Below, in pieces: positions 18,241-59,693 of a stretch of 64,000 nt of DNA (the stretch's first letter is position 1; each line of letters opens with the position of its first letter). The stretch is from Rhodoferax sp. Its GTDB lineage: Bacteria; Pseudomonadota; Gammaproteobacteria; Burkholderiales; Burkholderiaceae_C. Both the position numbers and the translations under genes were made by a program. Location of the stretch: contig NZ_JABBPD010000003.1 in NCBI RefSeq assembly GCF_012927445.1, forward strand, positions 183,973 to 247,972. The letters run 5' to 3'. The notes under the pieces are model-generated. The model was not told the origin of the DNA. It was given only the letters and a program-made list of their open reading frames with translations, and made no database searches.

Positions 18241-18822
18241 ATGGCGCACGAAAGCATTCGAATTATTCACGACGAGCACGCTGCGTTGGCGGCGATGTTG
18301 CGTTCCATTGGCATGATGGTTGAACGTGGTCCTGGCAACGAGCCTGAAAGTTTTTTTGATGTATTGCGGGCCATGCTGTTCTACATTGACGAGTTTCCGG
18401 AACGGCTGCATCACCCCAAGGAATCAGAACTGCTCTTCCCCCGCGTCGCCCGATTGGCGCCCGAGACCACGGAGGCCATTGACCGACTGGAAAATGACCA
18501 TGTCAAGGGCGAATCGGCAGTGCGCGAGTTACAGCATTTGTTGTTGGCGTGGGAGTTGGTTGGTGAATCCAGACGTGTCGCTTTTGAGAAAGCGGCAAAA
18601 CAGTATCTTGCTTTTTATCTGGAACACATGCGGCTGGAAGAGACCGTGATTCTGCCCGCAGCCCAAAAGGTATTGAGCGACGCCGACTGGAAAGAACTCG
18701 ATGCCGCATTTGCCACCAATTGCGATCCCCTCACCGGCAAGTACCCGCGTGACCCGGTGTACGACCGGCTGTTCACGCGTATTGTGTCGCGCGCGCCCGC
18801 ACCAATTGGCTTGGGGGATTAA
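18241..18822 (+). CDS. Hemerythrin-like HHE domain protein
   Basis: This 193-aa four-helix protein has the hemerythrin HHE metal-binding pattern: HDEHAALAAML, LHHPKESELLF, ENDHVKGE and YLEHMRLEETVILP, giving the His and Glu/Asp ligands of a diiron centre. HHE proteins bind O2, NO or iron, or sense redox state. ATG 18241 follows GGGGAGACGCATC and is preferred over the upstream track start. It stands alone, followed by a GC hairpin at 18811-18830. Cytoplasmic. Confidence 0.87.
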   Translation: MAHESIRIIHDEHAALAAMLRSIGMMVERGPGNEPESFFDVLRAMLFYIDEFPERLHHPKESELLFPRVARLAPETTEAIDRLENDHVKGESAVRELQHLLLAWELVGESRRVAFEKAAKQYLAFYLEHMRLEETVILPAAQKVLSDADWKELDAAFATNCDPLTGKYPRDPVYDRLFTRIVSRAPAPIGLGD

Positions 18823-18830
18823 CCCCCCAA
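18811..18830. terminator. Hairpin between the hemerythrin gene and the thiolase remnant
   Basis: TTGGGGG-ATTAAC-CCCCCAA is a 7-bp perfect stem that overlaps the hemerythrin stop codon. It could end transcription from either side, although there is no long T-run. Confidence 0.5.
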
Positions 18831-18832
18831 TA

Positions 18833-18950
18833 TCAGACGCGTTCGATGATCACCGCAATGCCTTGGCCGACGCCAATGCACATGGTGCACAGCGCGTAGC
18901 GGCCGCCAATGCGGTGCAATTGATTGATGGCCGTCGTTACCTGCGCCTGC
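18833..18950 (-). pseudogene. C-terminal remnant of a PcaF-type thiolase
   Basis: Only about 37 codons remain, ending GGRYALCTMCIGVGQG then IAVIIERV and a stop. That is the extreme C-terminus of beta-ketoadipyl-CoA/acetyl-CoA thiolases and includes the catalytic Cys of the CxxCIGVGQG motif. Upstream the thiolase frame runs into IS30 transposase sequence read antisense. The rest of the gene has been lost, probably by an IS-mediated deletion. The junction is only approximate. Confidence 0.8.
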
Positions 18951-19686
18951 ACCTCTCGCCCCAGCAGTGCAGTGGGCGACTCAGGCTGGAGAAAGCCATC
19001 AGCATCAGTGCCGAGTGCATTTACCAACACGCCTACCAAGACAAGGCGACAGGCGGGGACTTGGTGAGTTACCTGCGCTGTCAAAAGGTACGCCGCAAAC
19101 GCTACGCCAGTGGCCAGGAGCGCCGAGGCGTGCTGAAGAATCGCATCGGTATTGAGCAGCGTCCCACCGTGGTGGACAAACGCAGCCGTATTGGCGACTG
19201 GGAGGGGGACACCGTCATTGGCAAAGGGCACCAGGGTGTGCTGGTCACGCTGGTGGGGCGAAAATCTCGCTATACCCTGGCCTGCCAGTTGGACTCGCGC
19301 CACAGCGCGAAGGTCACACCGGCCATCATCGCGCTGCTACGGCCCCACAAGGCCAAGTGCAAGACCTTGACCTTTGACAATGGCAAAGAGTTCTCCGAGC
19401 ATGAATTCATCGCCCAGTGCTTGAAGGCCCGGGTGTACTTTGCGCATCCGTACTGCTCCTGGGAGCATGGGCTCAATGAAAACCACAATGGCTTGTTGCG
19501 CCAGTTCTTTCCCAAGCAGACCAACCTGCTCAAGGTGAGCCAGGATGAGGTCAATGAGGCGGTGTATCGGCTTAACCACCGACCTCGCAAGTGCCTGGGC
19601 TATCGCACCCCGCATGAGGTCTTTTATCGCTTGAAAATGACTCCGCTTAAACTTCCTACTGATGCACTTTGTAGTTGAATCTGCGA
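18951..19686 (+). pseudogene. IS30-family transposase, 5'-truncated
   Basis: The homologous part begins LSPQQCSGRLRLEKAISIS, so roughly the first 100 residues with the N-terminal HTH are missing. The DDE core is present: D in RSRIGDWEGDTVIG, D in LTFDNGKEF and E in HGLNENHNGLLRQFFP. The reading frame is intact to the stop at 19678, and the right end, with ACTTTGTAGTTGAATC, resembles an IS30-type terminus. The missing left end abuts the thiolase remnant. It cannot transpose on its own. Confidence 0.85.
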
Positions 19687-20310: not shown

Positions 20311-20527
20311 GCGGTCAGTCGAAGTGCTCCTCCAATTTCAAAATTGGCTTGTTTGAAGCCTAGAATCAAAAAAGAACAATCTGCGGGGTTTGTCGAAATT
20401 TTTATATCTGCAAATAATCCGAGAAAACCACTAAAACCAAGGCTAAAAGCCACTCTCAGGGGAAATTCATGACCAGTATATGGAGCAAGGTTCAGTATAT
20501 ATAGCATGTTTTTCTCTATACATTACG

Positions 20528-21013
20528 TTAGAACTGGAGAAATAATGCACTGTGATCTTGTAGTTAGTACATCAATCGCTCCAAAAACTATATCAGCTAC
20601 AAATATTGATGATTTCAAAGCCCAACTTGAAGCGTTGTTAATAGAATCAAAGCAACAAAGGGGAATTGTGTACATATGGAAAACACAATCTGATATACCA
20701 AGATTAAAAGGGAAAAACCCCATTATTTATATCGGGAAAGCTGATGGAAGCTTGTACGATCGCTATATAAATAAAATTACCCATGAGGCAAATGAGTACT
20801 GGGACAGGTACCATCAAATAATATCCGCCTACGGAAATATATATATAGAAATATTTGAGTCAAAAGATCCAAAAAAAACTGAAAACAATTTCTTATACCA
20901 ATATCATCAGCAATTTATGGAGTTGCCGCCTATCAATTTGCAAAGTTACAAATATGGCCTGCTCTAACCCATCATTCAAGCGGGACGCCTAACGGCGCCC
21001 CTTAATTCAAACG
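20528..21013 (+). mobile_element. Solitary integron-type gene cassette
   Basis: The proposed cassette starts after the G of CATTACG^TTAGAAC and ends after the G of CAAACG^TTAACG. If it is circularised, TTAGAA joins the final G to give GTTAGAA, whose first six bases (GTTAGA) are exactly complementary to TCTAAC in the R'' box at 20962-20968. It holds one gene with a tight leader, and its stop codon lies in R'', as in ordinary cassettes. No integrase gene is visible in the window. Confidence 0.7.
20545..20967 (+). CDS. GIY-YIG domain protein (cassette gene)
   Basis: This 140-aa protein has a central GIY-YIG-like core: GIVYIWK, then PIIYIGKADGSLYDRY, the two-strand motif with Arg in the following helix. 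Further on are NIYIEIFES and KKTENNFLYQYHQQF, where a Glu could be the metal ligand. The core is that of small nucleases, but the family also includes non-catalytic members. ATG 20545 follows GGAG at 5-nt spacing. Base composition is strongly AT-rich compared with flanking genes. The stop codon lies in the attC. Confidence 0.75.
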   Translation: MHCDLVVSTSIAPKTISATNIDDFKAQLEALLIESKQQRGIVYIWKTQSDIPRLKGKNPIIYIGKADGSLYDRYINKITHEANEYWDRYHQIISAYGNIYIEIFESKDPKKTENNFLYQYHQQFMELPPINLQSYKYGLL

Positions 21014-21286: not shown

Positions 21287-21640
21287 ATGAATCGCCGCCT
21301 TTGCATTCACACACTCATGTCAGTCACGGTCTGTGCATTGCTACCTAGTGCAACATTTTTTGCTGAACGGCAACCGCTTGCAGCCTCATTGCCACGCACC
21401 TCCAACGAACCCACTGAACCGGGCGCGCAAGAAATTGCGCCAGACCCGTTGTACGCCCAAGCAGTGGCTGTGGTGATGATCAATCAAAAGGCCAGTATTG
21501 GCCTGGTTCAGCGCCACCTCAAGTTGGGCTACAACCATGCAGCCCGCTTGCTTGAGGCGATGGAACAAGCCGGACTGATTGGTTCAAGGTATGTGAATGG
21601 TTATCGCCAAATTTTGGACTGTGGCATCCGGGAAACTTAA
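21287..21640 (+). CDS. Free-standing FtsK gamma-like winged-helix protein
   Basis: This 117-aa protein has residues 52-105 (DPLYAQAVAVVMINQKASIG, then LVQRHLKLGYNHAARLLEAM, EQAGLIG) that closely resemble the C-terminal gamma domain of FtsK/SpoIIIE, the winged helix that reads KOPS/SRS DNA. The rest of FtsK (membrane domain, motor) is absent. Instead a hydrophobic leader (MSVTVCALLPSATFFAE) precedes the domain. A DNA-binding domain behind a signal-like segment is odd, so either the real start is internal or the protein is membrane-tethered. Its stop overlaps that of the convergent gene by 4 bp. Confidence 0.7.
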   Translation: MNRRLCIHTLMSVTVCALLPSATFFAERQPLAASLPRTSNEPTEPGAQEIAPDPLYAQAVAVVMINQKASIGLVQRHLKLGYNHAARLLEAMEQAGLIGSRYVNGYRQILDCGIRET

Positions 21641-22467
21641 CCGTACTCAGCGACACACGCCAGCATCGTATTGCGGTGAATTTCCAGCACGCGGGCCAAT
21701 GGCTCTTGATAGCCACCGGCCAGATTCCACACCACCGGGATGCCGATTGACTTTGCCACAGAAAAAACGATACGGTCACGCACGGCCAATTCGTTGGTGG
21801 TAAGAAAACCGCCCAGCGGGTCATTGATGTGCGGGTCAGAACCTGCCTGGTAAATCAGCAAGTCGCAGTCAGCAAAGCTGCGTACCACTTGGGGCAACTG
21901 ATCAATGAATGGCTCCGCGTCAGTTGGACTCCAGTGTTCTTGCGAAACAAGTCGAATCCAATCAATATTCAGCACAGCCATGATTTCAGCCGTGCCATCG
22001 CCATAGTGTTGGTCGCAGTCAAGAATGCCGACGCGTTGAACTTTTCCCTCCAGCTTTAAGGCCAATGCCGTCACCATCAGCCCATTGAAGGTGCAGTAAC
22101 CGTAGCCGGTTTCATACCCCGCATGATGAAACCCTGAAGTTGGGGAACAGGTGACCAGTCCATTGTTCAAGGCACCACGTGCGGCTGACAGCAGTGATCC
22201 GCAAGTCCAGGGTAACGAGTCCGCCACGTCCCGCTGACGGCCACGAAATCCATTCATCAGTTCGCAATTCAGGATGCCATCCACGTACTCGTGTGAATGG
22301 GCCAGCGCAATCTGATCGCGACTGGTCGGCAGGGGCTCCACGATGTGGATAGGTAAACCTTGCTCGATCCAGTTCGCCACCACCAAAGCCGGTTTACGTG
22401 GGCTGGGGGACGAACTGTCCGGGCAGGATACCTGTTTAGGTGAGTAATAGACGTCGATGCAATCCAT
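21637..22467 (-). CDS. Histone-deacetylase-fold amidohydrolase
   Basis: This 276-aa arginase/deacetylase-fold enzyme has family motifs SGFHHAGYETGYGYCTFNGL (tandem His and the GFC-like loop), GILDCDQHYGDGT (zinc-binding Asp and His) and YQAGSDPHINDPLGG (second zinc Asp), then WNLAGGYQ where most HDACs have a Tyr-containing G-G-Y loop. Bacterial members deacetylate acetylpolyamines or other small amides. The substrate is unknown. ATG 22467 is preferred because ACGAGG lies 6-7 nt upstream. Confidence 0.85.
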   Translation of the reverse strand: MDCIDVYYSPKQVSCPDSSSPSPRKPALVVANWIEQGLPIHIVEPLPTSRDQIALAHSHEYVDGILNCELMNGFRGRQRDVADSLPWTCGSLLSAARGALNNGLVTCSPTSGFHHAGYETGYGYCTFNGLMVTALALKLEGKVQRVGILDCDQHYGDGTAEIMAVLNIDWIRLVSQEHWSPTDAEPFIDQLPQVVRSFADCDLLIYQAGSDPHINDPLGGFLTTNELAVRDRIVFSVAKSIGIPVVWNLAGGYQEPLARVLEIHRNTMLACVAEYG

Positions 22468-22571
22468 AAGTGCCTCGTTGTGTTGGGTCAATGTGCCAAG
22501 TATTCACAGACGTACGACACAGTGTGACGCACCCATCCTGACAATGACGTCAATCTCTCAAAACCATCGCC

Positions 22572-22817
22572 ATGACAAACCACCCCACATCCAGCTGGTC
22601 TGAAAGACTGCAACAACAAACCCGTGACGCTCTTGAACAACTGCCCGTCACTGCGGACGGCGGTCTGCACTTCAAGCACATAACACTGGGCGGTGCTTAT
22701 GCGACTTACGACGATCTTTGCAATGACCGTCTGATATTGCTCGCCCAAAAAGGAGGCAATGCATACCGTTTTGCAGAGGTAGATGCCCTGCTGCAGGCGG
22801 GCTGGGCGTTAGACTGA
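22572..22817 (+). CDS. Hypothetical 81-aa protein upstream of the DUF2779 gene
   Basis: I do not recognise it. It starts MTNHPTSSWSERLQQQTRDAL and ends VDALLQAGWALD, with a central ITLGGAYATYDDL. It has no membrane segment, Cys pairs or catalytic motif. It lies 26 bp upstream of the DUF2779 gene on the same strand, so it may belong to one operon with that gene and the WYL regulator. Confidence 0.6.
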   Translation: MTNHPTSSWSERLQQQTRDALEQLPVTADGGLHFKHITLGGAYATYDDLCNDRLILLAQKGGNAYRFAEVDALLQAGWALD

Positions 22818-22843
22818 CAAAAAAAAACAGGGAGGTGCGCACT

Positions 22844-24340
22844 ATGCGCAATTTTTCAAAATCAAAACTGCTGGCGCTACGCCAGTGTCCCAAGCGTCTG
22901 TGGCTGGAAATTCATCGTCCGGATCTGCGCGAGGACTCTGATGCCACGCAGGCGAGCTTTCAGATCGGCTACCAGGTGGGCGACATCGCCCATCAAATTT
23001 ACGACCCAGAAAATCTGGGTGCGCTCATTGACGTGCAAAGCGAGGGGTTCCCTCGTGCGTTCGAGCGCACCACGGAACTGCTTGGCACCCCACAGCCCAT
23101 CTTTGAAGCCGGTTTCTGTGCCGGTGGCGCACTGGCCTTTGCTGACGTCATGCTGCCTGAACAACAAGATGGCCAACAGGTCTGGCGCATGGTCGAAGTC
23201 AAATCCTCCACCAGCGTCAAGGACTACCACCGCGACGACGTGGCGGTACAAGCTTTCATCGCCAAGTCAGCCGGCGTGCTATTGCAGTCCATCGCCCTGG
23301 CGCACATTGACAGTTCGTGGACCTATCCGGGTAATGGGGACTACAGTGGGCTTTTGGTCGAGGCCGACCTTACGGCAGAAGCCTTCTCCCGCACCGACGA
23401 AGTCAAAGGCTGGATTGCGCAGGCGCAAAGCGTGGACGCCATGCCATCCGAGCCAGTCATCGACATTGGTGCCCATTGCGAAACGCCTTTTTCCTGTGGC
23501 TTTTATGACTATTGCAGCCGCGACGAACCGAAAGCACAATATCCAGTCTATTGGCTGCCTTACTTTGGCGCCAAAGCACAGCAGTTAGCCGCCCAGTGTG
23601 TGATTGAGCTGGCAGACGTGTCCGACGATCTGCTCAACGCCAGGCAACTACGGGTGAAGACCCATACCTTGGCCAACACCGTGTTCTTCGATGCGGATGG
23701 CGCCGCCGCCGAGTTGGCGATTCATTGCCTGCCCGCATATTTTCTGGACTTCGAGACCATTCAGTTTGCCGTGCCCATCTGGCAAGGCACGCGCCCTTAC
23801 CAACAAAACACCTTTCAGTTCAGCCTACACACCTTGTCGGAAGCGGGCCAGCTTGAGCACACCGAGTTTCTTGATATTTCTGGCGGCGACCCGGCCGAGC
23901 CATTCGCCCAAGCTTTAATCGCTGCCTGCGGTGAAAGCGGGCCAGTGTATGTGTACAACGCCGGGTTTGAAACATCGCGCATGAGTGAGCTGGCCACGCG
24001 CTATCCGCAATTCAGCGCATCGCTGCTGGCCATTAACGCCCGCGTCGTGGACTTGCTGCCCATTGCCCGTGAGCGCTACTACCACCCGAGCCAGCAAGGC
24101 AGTTGGAGCATCAAGAAAGTGCTGCCTGCCGTGGTACCAGAACTGCGTTATGACGCTCTCGATGGAGTGCAAGACGGCGGCATGGCGATGGAGGCTTTTC
24201 TGGAAGCGATTCACCCCGACACCCCAGCCGAACGCAAAAACCAGATCGAGCAACAACTGCTGGCCTATTGCAAGCTCGATACCTACGCCATGGTGCGCCT
24301 GTGGCAGGTGTTTGCTGGTCGCACTGACCTGAAACTGTAG
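22844..24340 (+). CDS. DUF2779 protein: Cas4-like nuclease plus RNase H-fold domain
   Basis: This 498-aa protein has an N-terminal part (MRNFSKSKLLALRQCPKRLW) like the Cas4/PD-(D/E)XK opening. FADVML and MVEVKSSTSVKDYH (about residues 100-125) supply the D...ExK catalytic pattern, and late cysteines (CETPFSCGFYDYC) resemble a Cas4-type iron-sulfur or zinc cluster. The C-terminal half has YFLDFET, YNAGFETSRM and CKLDTYAMVRLW, a DEDD-type 3'-5' exonuclease arrangement. Together this suggests a two-nuclease protein of unknown role. GGAGG 8 nt before ATG 22844 sets the start. Confidence 0.8.
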   Translation: MRNFSKSKLLALRQCPKRLWLEIHRPDLREDSDATQASFQIGYQVGDIAHQIYDPENLGALIDVQSEGFPRAFERTTELLGTPQPIFEAGFCAGGALAFADVMLPEQQDGQQVWRMVEVKSSTSVKDYHRDDVAVQAFIAKSAGVLLQSIALAHIDSSWTYPGNGDYSGLLVEADLTAEAFSRTDEVKGWIAQAQSVDAMPSEPVIDIGAHCETPFSCGFYDYCSRDEPKAQYPVYWLPYFGAKAQQLAAQCVIELADVSDDLLNARQLRVKTHTLANTVFFDADGAAAELAIHCLPAYFLDFETIQFAVPIWQGTRPYQQNTFQFSLHTLSEAGQLEHTEFLDISGGDPAEPFAQALIAACGESGPVYVYNAGFETSRMSELATRYPQFSASLLAINARVVDLLPIARERYYHPSQQGSWSIKKVLPAVVPELRYDALDGVQDGGMAMEAFLEAIHPDTPAERKNQIEQQLLAYCKLDTYAMVRLWQVFAGRTDLKL

Positions 24341-24353
24341 GCCCTACATCTGT

Positions 24354-25325
24354 ATGTCCAAACGACCGAGCCCCCACGAAACATTGCAGCTTTCAATCGA
24401 ACTGCTGCATTCCATCCCCAAGCGCGGAACCATCACCGCCACTGAGCTACAGAAGAAACTGGCGAATGATGGCTTTGCCCGCGAGCCGAGAACGATTCAG
24501 CGTCTGCTCGAAAGCCTGTGCGATGCTGACCTGTACGGCATCGAGCGGGACATGAGCAGCAAACCCTACCGTTACCGCTGGAAAGAGTCAGCCAGGGGCT
24601 TGACCATTGGCAGCCTGAGCCCGCAGGAATGCCTATTACTCACGCTGGCTGAGCAACAACTGGGCAGCTTGCTGCCGACCAAGTTGGTGAAGTCGATGGA
24701 CGGGTTTTTTGATCAGGCCCGCAGCCAGTTGGGCGAGACGACCAAAACCCAGCGCGAACGCGAATGGCTGGACAAAGTGCGCGTGGTCAGCACCAGCCAG
24801 CCGCTGCTGCCGCCCAAAATTGACCACGACGTGTTTGAGCAAGTCAGCAATGCGCTGTACGGCAACCAGTGGCTGGACGTGGATTACCAAAATGCGGCGG
24901 GTAATAAGACCAATTCCAAGGTCATGCCGTTGGGTCTGGCACAACAGGGGCCGCGGATGTACCTGGTTTGCCGGTTTGATGGCTACGACGATGAACGCTG
25001 CCTGGCGCTGCACCGCATGATTTCGGCCAAGGCATCTACCCTGACGTTCGAGCGGCCCAAGGATTTCGACCTCAAACACTTCGATGACGATGGTCACTTT
25101 GGTTATGGCGATGGCACACAGATTCGCCTGAGTTTTCGGATTGAGAAAAGCGCAGGGCTACACATCGTGGAATGCCCGCTGTCTGTTGATCAGCAGGTGG
25201 TGGAACTGGATGACGCTTACGAGATCACGGCAACGGTGGTGGACTCGGATATGTTGGACTGGTGGTTGCTGGGGTTTGGGGATGCAATGTGCAAGGTCTC
25301 ACGGAGTTCGTTGACGGGTCAATAG
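24354..25325 (+). CDS. WYL-domain transcriptional regulator
   Basis: This 323-aa protein has an N-terminal winged helix (ITATELQKKLANDGFAREPR, TIQRLLESL) followed by a WYL domain (about 140-230: LDVDYQNAAGNK, MPLGLAQQGPRMYLVCRFDG, ALHRMISAKAS) and a C-terminal WCX extension (DWWLLGFGDAMCKV). WYL regulators sense nucleic-acid or nucleotide ligands and often control DNA repair or phage-defence genes. It starts 13 bp after the DUF2779 gene, so it probably controls that unit. Confidence 0.85.
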   Translation: MSKRPSPHETLQLSIELLHSIPKRGTITATELQKKLANDGFAREPRTIQRLLESLCDADLYGIERDMSSKPYRYRWKESARGLTIGSLSPQECLLLTLAEQQLGSLLPTKLVKSMDGFFDQARSQLGETTKTQREREWLDKVRVVSTSQPLLPPKIDHDVFEQVSNALYGNQWLDVDYQNAAGNKTNSKVMPLGLAQQGPRMYLVCRFDGYDDERCLALHRMISAKASTLTFERPKDFDLKHFDDDGHFGYGDGTQIRLSFRIEKSAGLHIVECPLSVDQQVVELDDAYEITATVVDSDMLDWWLLGFGDAMCKVSRSSLTGQ

Positions 25326-25371: not shown

Positions 25372-25815
25372 ATGGCACGATTCACGCGTGAAGAATTACA
25401 AAAACGAGCTTTTTTTCGGACTGCTTGGGTTTTACAGAATTTTTGGGAAGAGCAACAAGATGAGAATCCGCGGGGAACGAAGGCAGATGTGCATTCGCGT
25501 TTATTTGACACGTTGGTTCATGAACCTTTAATTCTGATCGGGAAATCAACAAAGGGCGGTGGTCATAAAGAGCATCTTGTTCCGTGTGCACTAATACGCA
25601 ACCGTGCCTTTGAAATGTTTCACGATGGGAAGCAAGTAGAAGATGTCGCTGAAATGATTGGTACGTTCTTACGAATAGCTCACATCTCTCCAGATGAGGC
25701 GCGTTTACTTGACATTGAACTTAAATTAAAAACAACAATGCCAGTTGACTGGAGTTTCGAGACTGGGTCCGTTTTGAGTCGACTGGAAAAGGCTGGCATT
25801 AAGCTGGTCGAATGA
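25372..25815 (+). CDS. Hypothetical protein with a possible HNH-type motif
   Basis: This 147-aa protein starts MARFTREELQKRAFFRTAW. I do not recognise the family. The segment GGGHKEHLVPCALIRNRAFE resembles the start of an HNH fold (His-x-x-His followed by a Pro), but the later Asn/His positions are not clear. It is a single gene after the WYL regulator with codon use slightly AT-richer than its neighbours. Function unknown. Confidence 0.6.
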   Translation: MARFTREELQKRAFFRTAWVLQNFWEEQQDENPRGTKADVHSRLFDTLVHEPLILIGKSTKGGGHKEHLVPCALIRNRAFEMFHDGKQVEDVAEMIGTFLRIAHISPDEARLLDIELKLKTTMPVDWSFETGSVLSRLEKAGIKLVE

Positions 25816-25966: not shown

Positions 25967-26236
25967 ATGGGAACTAAATGTAAGTTTTGCGGTTCGTCAA
26001 GTTTTGGAACTACATCCAACTCTGGTCATCCTCATGGATGCCATGAACATACAGGCGTAGATTTGAAGCACTGCGTATTCTGCAACTCAACCAGTTACGG
26101 AACCACGTCAAACTCGGGTCATCCCGATGGATGCCACAAACATGGAAGTGATGGTCAACATTGCATCTATTGTGGATCGACAAGCACCGGTACAACCTCC
26201 AGCTCAGGTCATCCAAATCGGTGTCATGAAAGATAG
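25967..26236 (+). CDS. Small protein of three tandem CxxC...HxxxCH zinc-finger-like repeats
   Basis: This 89-aa protein is made almost entirely of three repeats of about 29 residues, each of the form C-x2-C-x12-H-x3-C-H, with the invariant core GTTSNSGHP (SSSGHP in the third). The four Cys/His of each unit look like a tetrahedral zinc site, giving three small knuckles in a row. The loop is rich in Gly, Ser and Thr. AAGGAG lies 9 nt before ATG 25967. I do not recognise a named family. Nucleic-acid binding or metal storage are both possible. Confidence 0.7.
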   Translation: MGTKCKFCGSSSFGTTSNSGHPHGCHEHTGVDLKHCVFCNSTSYGTTSNSGHPDGCHKHGSDGQHCIYCGSTSTGTTSSSGHPNRCHER

Positions 26237-26297
26237 CCCTTGTATATGGGGCAACTAAGCTCGTCTGCGTCATTTATTGATAAACCGGAGCAAAGCG

Positions 26298-26741
26298 ATG
26301 CAAGCTCAATTTCAGACGGAATTTCTCCAGCGGTATCCAAATTTTTTCCGCTCACCGGGAATGCGTTTGGTTGACCCTGATGTCATTCCCGGTCTTTTGG
26401 TGGATGACCTGGCCCCGTTTGATCAGCGTGGCATCGAATGCGAAGACGGCTGGTTCGACTTGATTGATCGGTTGAGTCGTGCCTGTGAAAACGAAATCGG
26501 AATGCTTATTGCGAAGGACGTGCCCAAGGAGCGCTGGCCGCGCGTCGCTCAGATCAAAGAAAAAATGGGTGGCTTGCGTTTTTACGTCAATGGCCCACTC
26601 TCTGACGAATTACGGACGCTGATTTTGCAGGTCGAAAATATTGATAGCCTTTGCACATGCGAACGCTGTGGCGCACCTGGCAAATTACGTGAAGGCCGGT
26701 GGCGGCACACTCATTGCGACAACTGCGCCGCTACAGAATAG
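26298..26741 (+). CDS. Hypothetical protein with C-terminal zinc ribbon
   Basis: This 147-aa protein starts MQAQFQTEFLQRYPNFF at ATG 26298 behind CGGAG. The middle part (GWFDLIDRLSRACENEI, IKEKMGGLRFYVNG) is a conserved hypothetical domain. The C-terminus holds two Cys pairs, CERCGAPGK and HCDNCAATE, forming a zinc ribbon. Proteins of this build occur as isolated genes in many proteobacterial accessory regions, and no function is known to me. Confidence 0.65.
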   Translation: MQAQFQTEFLQRYPNFFRSPGMRLVDPDVIPGLLVDDLAPFDQRGIECEDGWFDLIDRLSRACENEIGMLIAKDVPKERWPRVAQIKEKMGGLRFYVNGPLSDELRTLILQVENIDSLCTCERCGAPGKLREGRWRHTHCDNCAATE

Positions 26742-59488: not shown

Positions 59489-59564
59489 TCCTCGATAGCT
59501 CAGTTGGTAGAGCGCCGGACTGTTAATCCGTAGGTCCCTGGTTCGAGCCCAGGTCGAGGAGCCA
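59489..59564 (+). tRNA. tRNA-Asn(GTT), copy 1
   Basis: The 76-nt cloverleaf has acceptor TCCTCGA/TCGAGGA, D arm GCTCAGTTGGTAGAGC, anticodon loop CTGTTAA with GTT, and T arm CCTGG-TTCGAGC-CCAGG, with encoded CCA. Confidence 0.97.
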
Positions 59565-59617: not shown

Positions 59618-59693
59618 TCCTCGATAGCTCAGTTGGTAGAGCGCCGGACTGTTAATCCGTAGGTCCCTGGTTCGAGCCCAGGTCGAGGAGCCA
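59618..59693 (+). tRNA. tRNA-Asn(GTT), copy 2
   Basis: It is identical to copy 1 over all 76 nt, including CCA, and lies 53 nt downstream. Confidence 0.97.

Follow-up and report, generated by a model that had tools for sequence, protein, structure and literature searches.

A three-gene unit and its surroundings

We have analyzed here a three-gene unit from Rhodoferax sp. that lies within a 64,000-nucleotide stretch of DNA, hereafter called the window. In order, it encodes an 81-aa protein (P0001), a 498-aa DUF2779 protein and a 323-aa WYL regulator (P0003). The features at the locus are as follows, in window coordinates:

21637-22491, reverse strand: deacetylase-like gene (Hist_deacetyl family, PF00850, 1.2e-28), predicted to share its operator with the operon
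22499-22504, reverse strand: -10-like box AATACT for divergent transcription of the deacetylase-like gene, 8 nt from the palindrome (PWM 19.3 bits at 22497)
22513-22531, no strand assigned: operator palindrome, imperfect copy TACGACA-CAGTG-TGACGCA (PWM 40.6 bits)
22540-22545, forward strand: -10-like box GACAAT of the P0001-DUF2779-WYL operon, 8 nt past the palindrome
22572-22817, forward strand: P0001, 81 aa, first gene of the operon (four relatives, purifying selection, predicted alpha/beta fold)
22844-24340, forward strand: DUF2779 two-nuclease protein (PF11074, PADLOC Cas4, conservation in 61 proteins, model and fold search)
24354-25325, forward strand: WYL/WCX transcription regulator P0003 (Pfam WYL, 2.9e-10, and WCX; profile match to DriD/PafBC)
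25372-25815, forward strand: probable accessory gene, family c7, 46 nt past the WYL gene (relatives near DUF2779/WYL)
26277-26741, forward strand: possible accessory gene, family c20 (relatives in DUF2779 loci; own operator absent)

An earlier note on this DNA had placed the three genes at these coordinates, with 13 nt between the DUF2779 and WYL genes, and both the positions and the gap hold in the ORF coordinates. The DUF2779 protein is read from the ATG at 22844, which follows GGGAGGTG, with a GTG at 22835 as an alternative start. The true start of the deacetylase-like gene is probably the ATG at 22467. All three genes of the unit are under purifying selection, with Nei-Gojobori dN/dS values against relatives of ~0.06-0.10 for DUF2779, 0.10-0.18 for the WYL protein and 0.12-0.46 for the 81-aa protein.

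Several other elements lie around the unit. An IS30-like transposase recognized by eye is located 5' of it at 18701-19678 and is a possible sign of mobility. The gene at 20506-20967 has a low GC content (0.34), is GIY-YIG-like by eye (YIW...YIGKA) and is without a Pfam match. At 21287-21640 an FtsK gamma winged helix, lacking the FtsK motor, stands alone after a signal-like N-terminus; in related cassettes the same domain is fused to SIR2 and to a PP2C-like protein (L003 6673-7671, L047 6544-7590, L159 5303-6412). The gene at 25967-26236 encodes a small protein in which a cysteine/histidine repeat is present in three near-identical copies, and which recurs 3' of related units (L033 12759-13028, L034 11934-12203). 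Near the end of the window, a tandem tRNA-Asn pair (59489-59564 and 59618-59693), together with lower-GC genes, is a possible integration site.

Two predicted nuclease halves in the DUF2779 protein

The DUF2779 protein matches PF11074 strongly (3.6e-42 across residues 299-422, scoring 144 bits where the cut-off is 23.3), and its N-terminal half matches the PADLOC Cas4 model weakly (7.5e-5). The earlier note had divided the protein into a Cas4-like PD-(D/E)XK half and a DEDD exonuclease half, a division that is sustained by complete sets of catalytic and Fe-S residues and by the fold of the predicted structure. The Cas4-like half (residues ~1-230) carries C15, E88, D101, E118-x-K120, Q136, C212, C218 and C224. 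The PD-(D/E)XK core residues E88, D101, E118, K120 and Q136 are invariant among 61 aligned relatives, as are the four cysteines C15, C212, C218 and C224 (61/61), which fit a predicted [4Fe-4S] cluster. The exonuclease half (residues ~295-490) contains D302-x-E304, E376, D403 and Y475...D479, providing a DxE motif I, an acidic motif II in which E376 replaces the usual D, and a Y475-x3-D479 motif III on a predicted RNase H-like fold. E304, E376, D403, Y475 and D479 are again invariant (61/61) and D302 is found in 60 of the 61, so that the check on catalytic residues suggested by the earlier note finds them present across the family. In one relative (L043 3149-4648) motif I carries D302V, with the remaining catalytic residues intact.

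The AlphaFold model of the protein has a pLDDT of 95 and a pTM of 0.87. A fold search with this model relates one half to Cas4 of the type I-C adaptation complex (8d3l, E 1.2e-4), MGME1 and AddB, the Cas4 and MGME1 matches being significant at E about 1e-4, and the other half more weakly to E. coli exonuclease I (E 0.019, probability 0.98).

RNase H-like folds were surveyed in 2014, and the part of that survey that concerns this family lists DUF2779 as family F.17 together with DUF83 and predicts a 3'-5' exonuclease (PMC3985635). The earlier note knew of no described role for its combination of parts; the Cas4-like (DUF83) and DUF2779 pair had been noted in the survey with a predicted activity. 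In those parts of the literature on DUF2779, PF11074 or UU173 that we could draw on, no function is assigned past this predicted exonuclease. DUF2779 proteins are widespread, and the bacterial family includes a longer DUF2779-like branch of ~650-750 aa (for example G447:C1:98531-99055 and G753:C3:201-680). We rejected an identification of DUF2779 as a phage gene: 2.9 million viral contigs hold 24 relatives, mostly at 23-34% identity, and six phage records match in part only.

The small protein P0001

The 81-aa protein had been called an orphan, a description that has to be dropped, since four relatives of 56-60% identity each lie directly upstream of DUF2779 in other genomes. With the window counted, P0001 is present in 5 of 401 family genomes (G000, G581, G478, G710, G606) and nowhere else among them, and is restricted to one subclade; in G581 its domain forms a fusion with a longer N-terminal segment. 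It has no match in Pfam or PADLOC and belongs to no family known to them. The model (pLDDT 80) has a predicted alpha/beta fold, for which a search of the PDB gave no significant match. Two candidate identities were discarded: a remnant of an AAA+ ATPase, to which P0001 has no similarity, and a chance ORF, which is ruled out by conservation and dN/dS. As a guess, P0001 may serve as an adaptor or a restraint.

A WYL regulator close to DriD and PafBC

The earlier identification of P0003 as a WYL regulator stands, with both the WYL and the WCX domain above their Pfam cut-offs. Its HTH is without a Pfam match and gives a weak profile match to a repressor HTH (1p6r, E 0.1). A profile of the WYL family matches the DriD-type structures 7u02, 7tzv and 8tp8 and PafBC (6sj9) with E-values running from 1e-11 (DriD-type) to 2e-7 (PafBC), which establishes kinship of the WYL domain with these proteins; BrxR and CapW structures are unmatched by the profile up to E 0.5.

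Activation by ssDNA is known for both PafBC and DriD (PMC11804915; PMC12340889). DriD binds a 20-bp pseudo-palindrome that covers a poor -35 and keeps a fixed distance to the -10, also at a bidirectional promoter, and its regulon includes the exonuclease gene recJ and the endonuclease gene bapE (PMC12340889). WYL homologues are also known to co-locate with defence genes (PMC9122601).

A 19-bp operator in the window's clade

By eye we spotted a motif in compared upstream regions, which was then tested in other loci with controls. It is a 19-bp palindrome, TGCGACA-N5-TGTCGCA, lying 8-9 nt 5' of a -10-like box and without a recognizable -35. At the nine nearest loci the palindrome is found 8 nt before the -10-like box in every case (9/9), with the other upstream DNA differing. 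The promoter region in the window contains no sigma-70 type -35/-10 pair and no consensus -35. A scan of the 3.94-Mb window genome that allowed up to 2 mismatches finds one site, at 22513-22531.

Across 1.58 Mb of DUF2779 loci the palindrome occurs 19 times exactly, 48 times with at most 1 mismatch and 100 times with at most 2. The corresponding counts are 0, 0 and 5 in the reversed-sequence control and 0, 0 and 3 in random genome sequence of 400 kb. With the spacer changed from 5 to 4 or 6 nt, almost no sites are left. A PWM trained on the nine loci detects 40 sites of at least 18 bits in untrained loci and 0 in the reversed control. For sites with at most 1 mismatch, the -10-like hexamer is offset by 8 or 9 in 38 cases and by any other distance in 0-3. 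A named cassette gene begins within 160 nt of 70 of the 100 sites; by gene, the site counts are 28 for AAA+, 14 for DUF2779, 11 for WYL itself, 5 for PP2C, 4 each for P0001, HDAC-like and FtsZ-like genes and 3 for SIR2, with FtsH-like and other genes also represented. Sites are present at 45 of 58 loci with the WYL family and 8 of 53 without it (Fisher p=2e-11, to be taken as a guide only, because locus lengths differ and some loci are related). By genome, a hand tally of the 401 family genomes finds the exact palindrome in 7 of 23 with DUF2779 and 14 of 378 without (p=5e-5), an exact pattern that misses the imperfect site of the window itself; 8 of the 26 exact sites in family genomes are no more than 5 kb away from a DUF2779 gene.

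The palindrome could instead be the site of a host regulator unrelated to the unit, or a mobile-element repeat, with DUF2779 and WYL merely traveling together, as the 8 loci that have sites and no detected WYL relative might suggest. We regard this as very improbable: the spacing to the -10 is fixed, sites precede start codons and co-occur with WYL, and the motif is as rare in random sequence and in the window genome as the counts above indicate. In the literature, the palindrome is met only as chance strings. At distant (<45%) DUF2779 loci it is mostly missing, and the regulon describes the window's clade, not DUF2779 proteins at large.

The shared operator makes control of the unit by the WYL protein, as the earlier note had suggested, likely, and P0003 would be the protein that binds the palindrome. 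In the window the operator is predicted to form a bidirectional promoter with the deacetylase-like gene. The divergent deacetylase-like arrangement is also found in L151, L152, L154 and L035, where deacetylase-like relatives of 70-80% identity adjoin DUF2779, and the divergent pair recurs together with the operator in L151, L154 and L035. The unit in the window is one promoter's share of a larger regulon; in the window genome, with its one site, the 'regulon' amounts to one bidirectional promoter.

The main regulatory rival to DriD-like activation is repression of the CapW/BrxR type, in which the WYL protein would silence a harmful nuclease until infection as part of an abortive or restriction system. 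In CBASS and BREX, WYL repressors recognize promoter palindromes of 19-25 bp, the BrxR half-sites are 5 nt apart, as they are in this operator, and the co-location of WYL homologues with defence (PMC9122601) would also be in keeping with such a role. However, the WYL family profile matched DriD and PafBC and not the BrxR or CapW structures, and the missing consensus -35 better fits an activator-dependent promoter. On balance we think repression unlikely. Ligand-triggered activation is the most likely mode of control, given that the WYL protein is closest to DriD/PafBC and that the promoter has a DriD-like layout without a consensus -35; sequence alone is compatible with either mode, and P0003 may be an activator.

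Gene order and distribution in related genomes

The gene-order survey covered 80 genome loci found by profile, 12 plasmid loci and further same-family genomes; unannotated loci were read from mechanical ORF calls, so some neighbors may be spurious. The WYL gene lies 0-100 nt 3' of DUF2779 on the same strand at 26 of 116 loci and at 21 of the 47 with at least 50% identity. A double-AAA+ ATPase gene lies within 150 nt 5' of DUF2779 on the same strand at 15 loci, 14 of them among those 47, and is most often the gene before DUF2779 in related loci of 50-68% identity. Loci of the subclade closest to the window (75-90%) lack the ATPase at this position, which P0001 occupies in five genomes, that of the window included; a broken copy remains in L031. 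No AAA+ partner was found elsewhere in the window genome, which gave a generic AAA match only (E 3.9e-11). DUF2779-WYL is a more constant pair than the three-gene order: of the association that the earlier note had proposed, the adjacency of these two genes is kept and the order with the 81-aa gene is limited to the window's subclade. Distances between DUF2779 proteins and between their adjacent WYL proteins correlate (Mantel r 0.77, p 1e-4), with a contribution from host ancestry.

Relatives of the probable accessory gene c7 are found near DUF2779/WYL in L043, L048, L064, L072, L073 and L159, with an operator 5' of the L159 copy. Those of c20 occur in L002, L017, L089, L090, L093, L152 and L159, every one a DUF2779 locus. 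Beside DUF2779-WYL, FtsZ/tubulin-like GTPases recur (L002 6571-7680, L034 3658-4749, L033 7133-7714, L153, L154), and operators lie 5' of some FtsZ-like genes (L002, L045, L153, and on the reverse strand in L033). Within such a cassette, a gene for an FtsH-like protein with AAA and M41 peptidase domains (L152 8350-10335) has a strong copy of the operator to itself (36.9 bits).

The unit is patchy in distribution. Among the 401 family genomes, 55 have any DUF2779 match and ~23 have one at 55% identity or above; copies are broken in G714 and G646, and some units are carried on plasmids. Island borders could not be drawn from an empty site in relatives, where the pobA-like and gentisate dioxygenase-like flanks are not neighbors. 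McrBC, Gabija GajB, reverse transcriptase and candidate-defence genes are found near DUF2779 loci, and the PADLOC matches of neighbors are modestly more varied than those of 137 control genes (among the 25 of 77 and 25 of 52 families listed). An unsystematic look at annotated DUF2779 neighborhoods noticed no cas1 or cas2. In PADLOC-DB 2.0 the gene set of the unit corresponds to no described defence system, with only the generic Cas4 and WYL models matched.

These observations bear on whether the unit might instead be a host repair or recombination module, in which the WYL protein would sense ssDNA from damage and the nuclease would resect the host's own broken ends, phage protection not being its role. 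The nearest WYL relatives are DNA-damage activators, the DriD regulon contains recJ and bapE (PMC12340889), the predicted fold resembles the repair nucleases AddB and ExoI, and the deacetylase-like, SIR2 and PP2C partners fit a stress response. The patchiness of the unit, its broken copies, plasmid carriage, variable neighbors and proximity to defence genes are nevertheless unlike core repair, and repair as the primary function seems to us rather improbable. Defence is favored over repair by the patchiness, plasmid carriage and broken copies, and by the McrBC, Gabija, reverse transcriptase and candidate-defence neighbors; given that the excess of PADLOC matches among neighbors is modest, the unit may be described as a putative defence module.

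Relation to known systems

The kinds of parts in the unit are known already; no description of the module as assembled, or of its operator, appears to exist. The 2014 survey (PMC3985635) deals, in its part on F.17 and DUF83, with the same protein family and the same Cas4-like and RNase H-like pair. That part treats the domains, and the gene partners, operator, WYL control and ATPase belong to the present analysis.

DriD of Caulobacter and PafBC of mycobacteria have the closest WYL domains by sequence, and DriD shares with our system a pseudo-palindrome on a poor -35, a fixed -10 distance, a bidirectional promoter and nuclease targets. DriD is, however, a DNA-damage regulator with targets genome-wide, whereas here the targets cluster in a mobile set around the nuclease. 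CapW and BrxR, from CBASS and BREX, have the same wHTH-WYL-WCX build, promoter palindromes and control of defence operons, but they are repressors, their structures are unmatched by the WYL profile and their operons are without DUF2779.

Cas4 and the solo-Cas4/UvrD-Cas4 proteins share the PD-(D/E)XK fold and the four cysteines, and WYL regulators and defence genes also occur in some UvrD-Cas4 loci (PMC5704561). DUF2779 differs in its extra DEDD exonuclease and in that no Cas1/Cas2 partner was noticed in the annotated loci. COG2251/TM0106 proteins (RecB-like, RNase_H_2 and SF1 helicase) offer an analogous pairing of RecB-like and RNase H-like nucleases, although with another RNase H family (PF13482) and a fused helicase; their genes lie near DUF2779 in L005, L088, L099, L101 and L107.

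Proposed working of the module

We propose, at slightly better than even confidence, that a mobile regulon for DNA degradation and stress/defence is governed by a DriD-like WYL protein, whose signal is probably nucleic-acid fragments. In this model the unit would be the core of that regulon, which is patchy in distribution, and a homodimeric DriD/PafBC-type WYL protein would bind the 19-bp palindrome overlapping the -35 region. Its signal would most likely be ssDNA or other nucleic-acid fragments produced by an infecting phage, by DNA entering the cell or by DNA damage, and on sensing it the WYL protein would induce the operon together with the divergent deacetylase-like gene. The DUF2779 protein would then resect DNA through two active sites, one a Cas4/AddB-like PD-(D/E)XK nuclease in which the Fe-S cluster would hold the fold together, the other a DEDD (ExoI-like) 3'-5' exonuclease. 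In most relatives the same promoter would also give rise to a double-AAA+ ATPase that drives or loads the nuclease, and in the window's subclade the 81-aa protein would occupy the position of the ATPase. The WYL ligand, DNA substrate and protective role proposed here are predictions from the gene and protein sequences.

More tentatively, and as a possibility that we put at well short of even, the whole may be a hitherto undescribed, nucleic-acid-triggered defence regulon in which one WYL activator and the 19-bp operator wire together interchangeable cassette genes. The set would comprise the double-AAA+ ATPase, DUF2779, PP2C, SIR2, deacetylase-like, FtsZ-like and FtsH-like genes and others. 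If this is true, it would be an inducible response to foreign or broken DNA, and the operator would flag new defence genes. The operator is in any case a handle that names regulator, promoter and partner genes, and a DNA pattern for finding further members. Should ssDNA prove to be what the WYL protein senses, a DNA-damage-type sensor would be tied to mobile, defence-island nucleases, which would bear on how bacteria discriminate foreign or broken DNA from their own.
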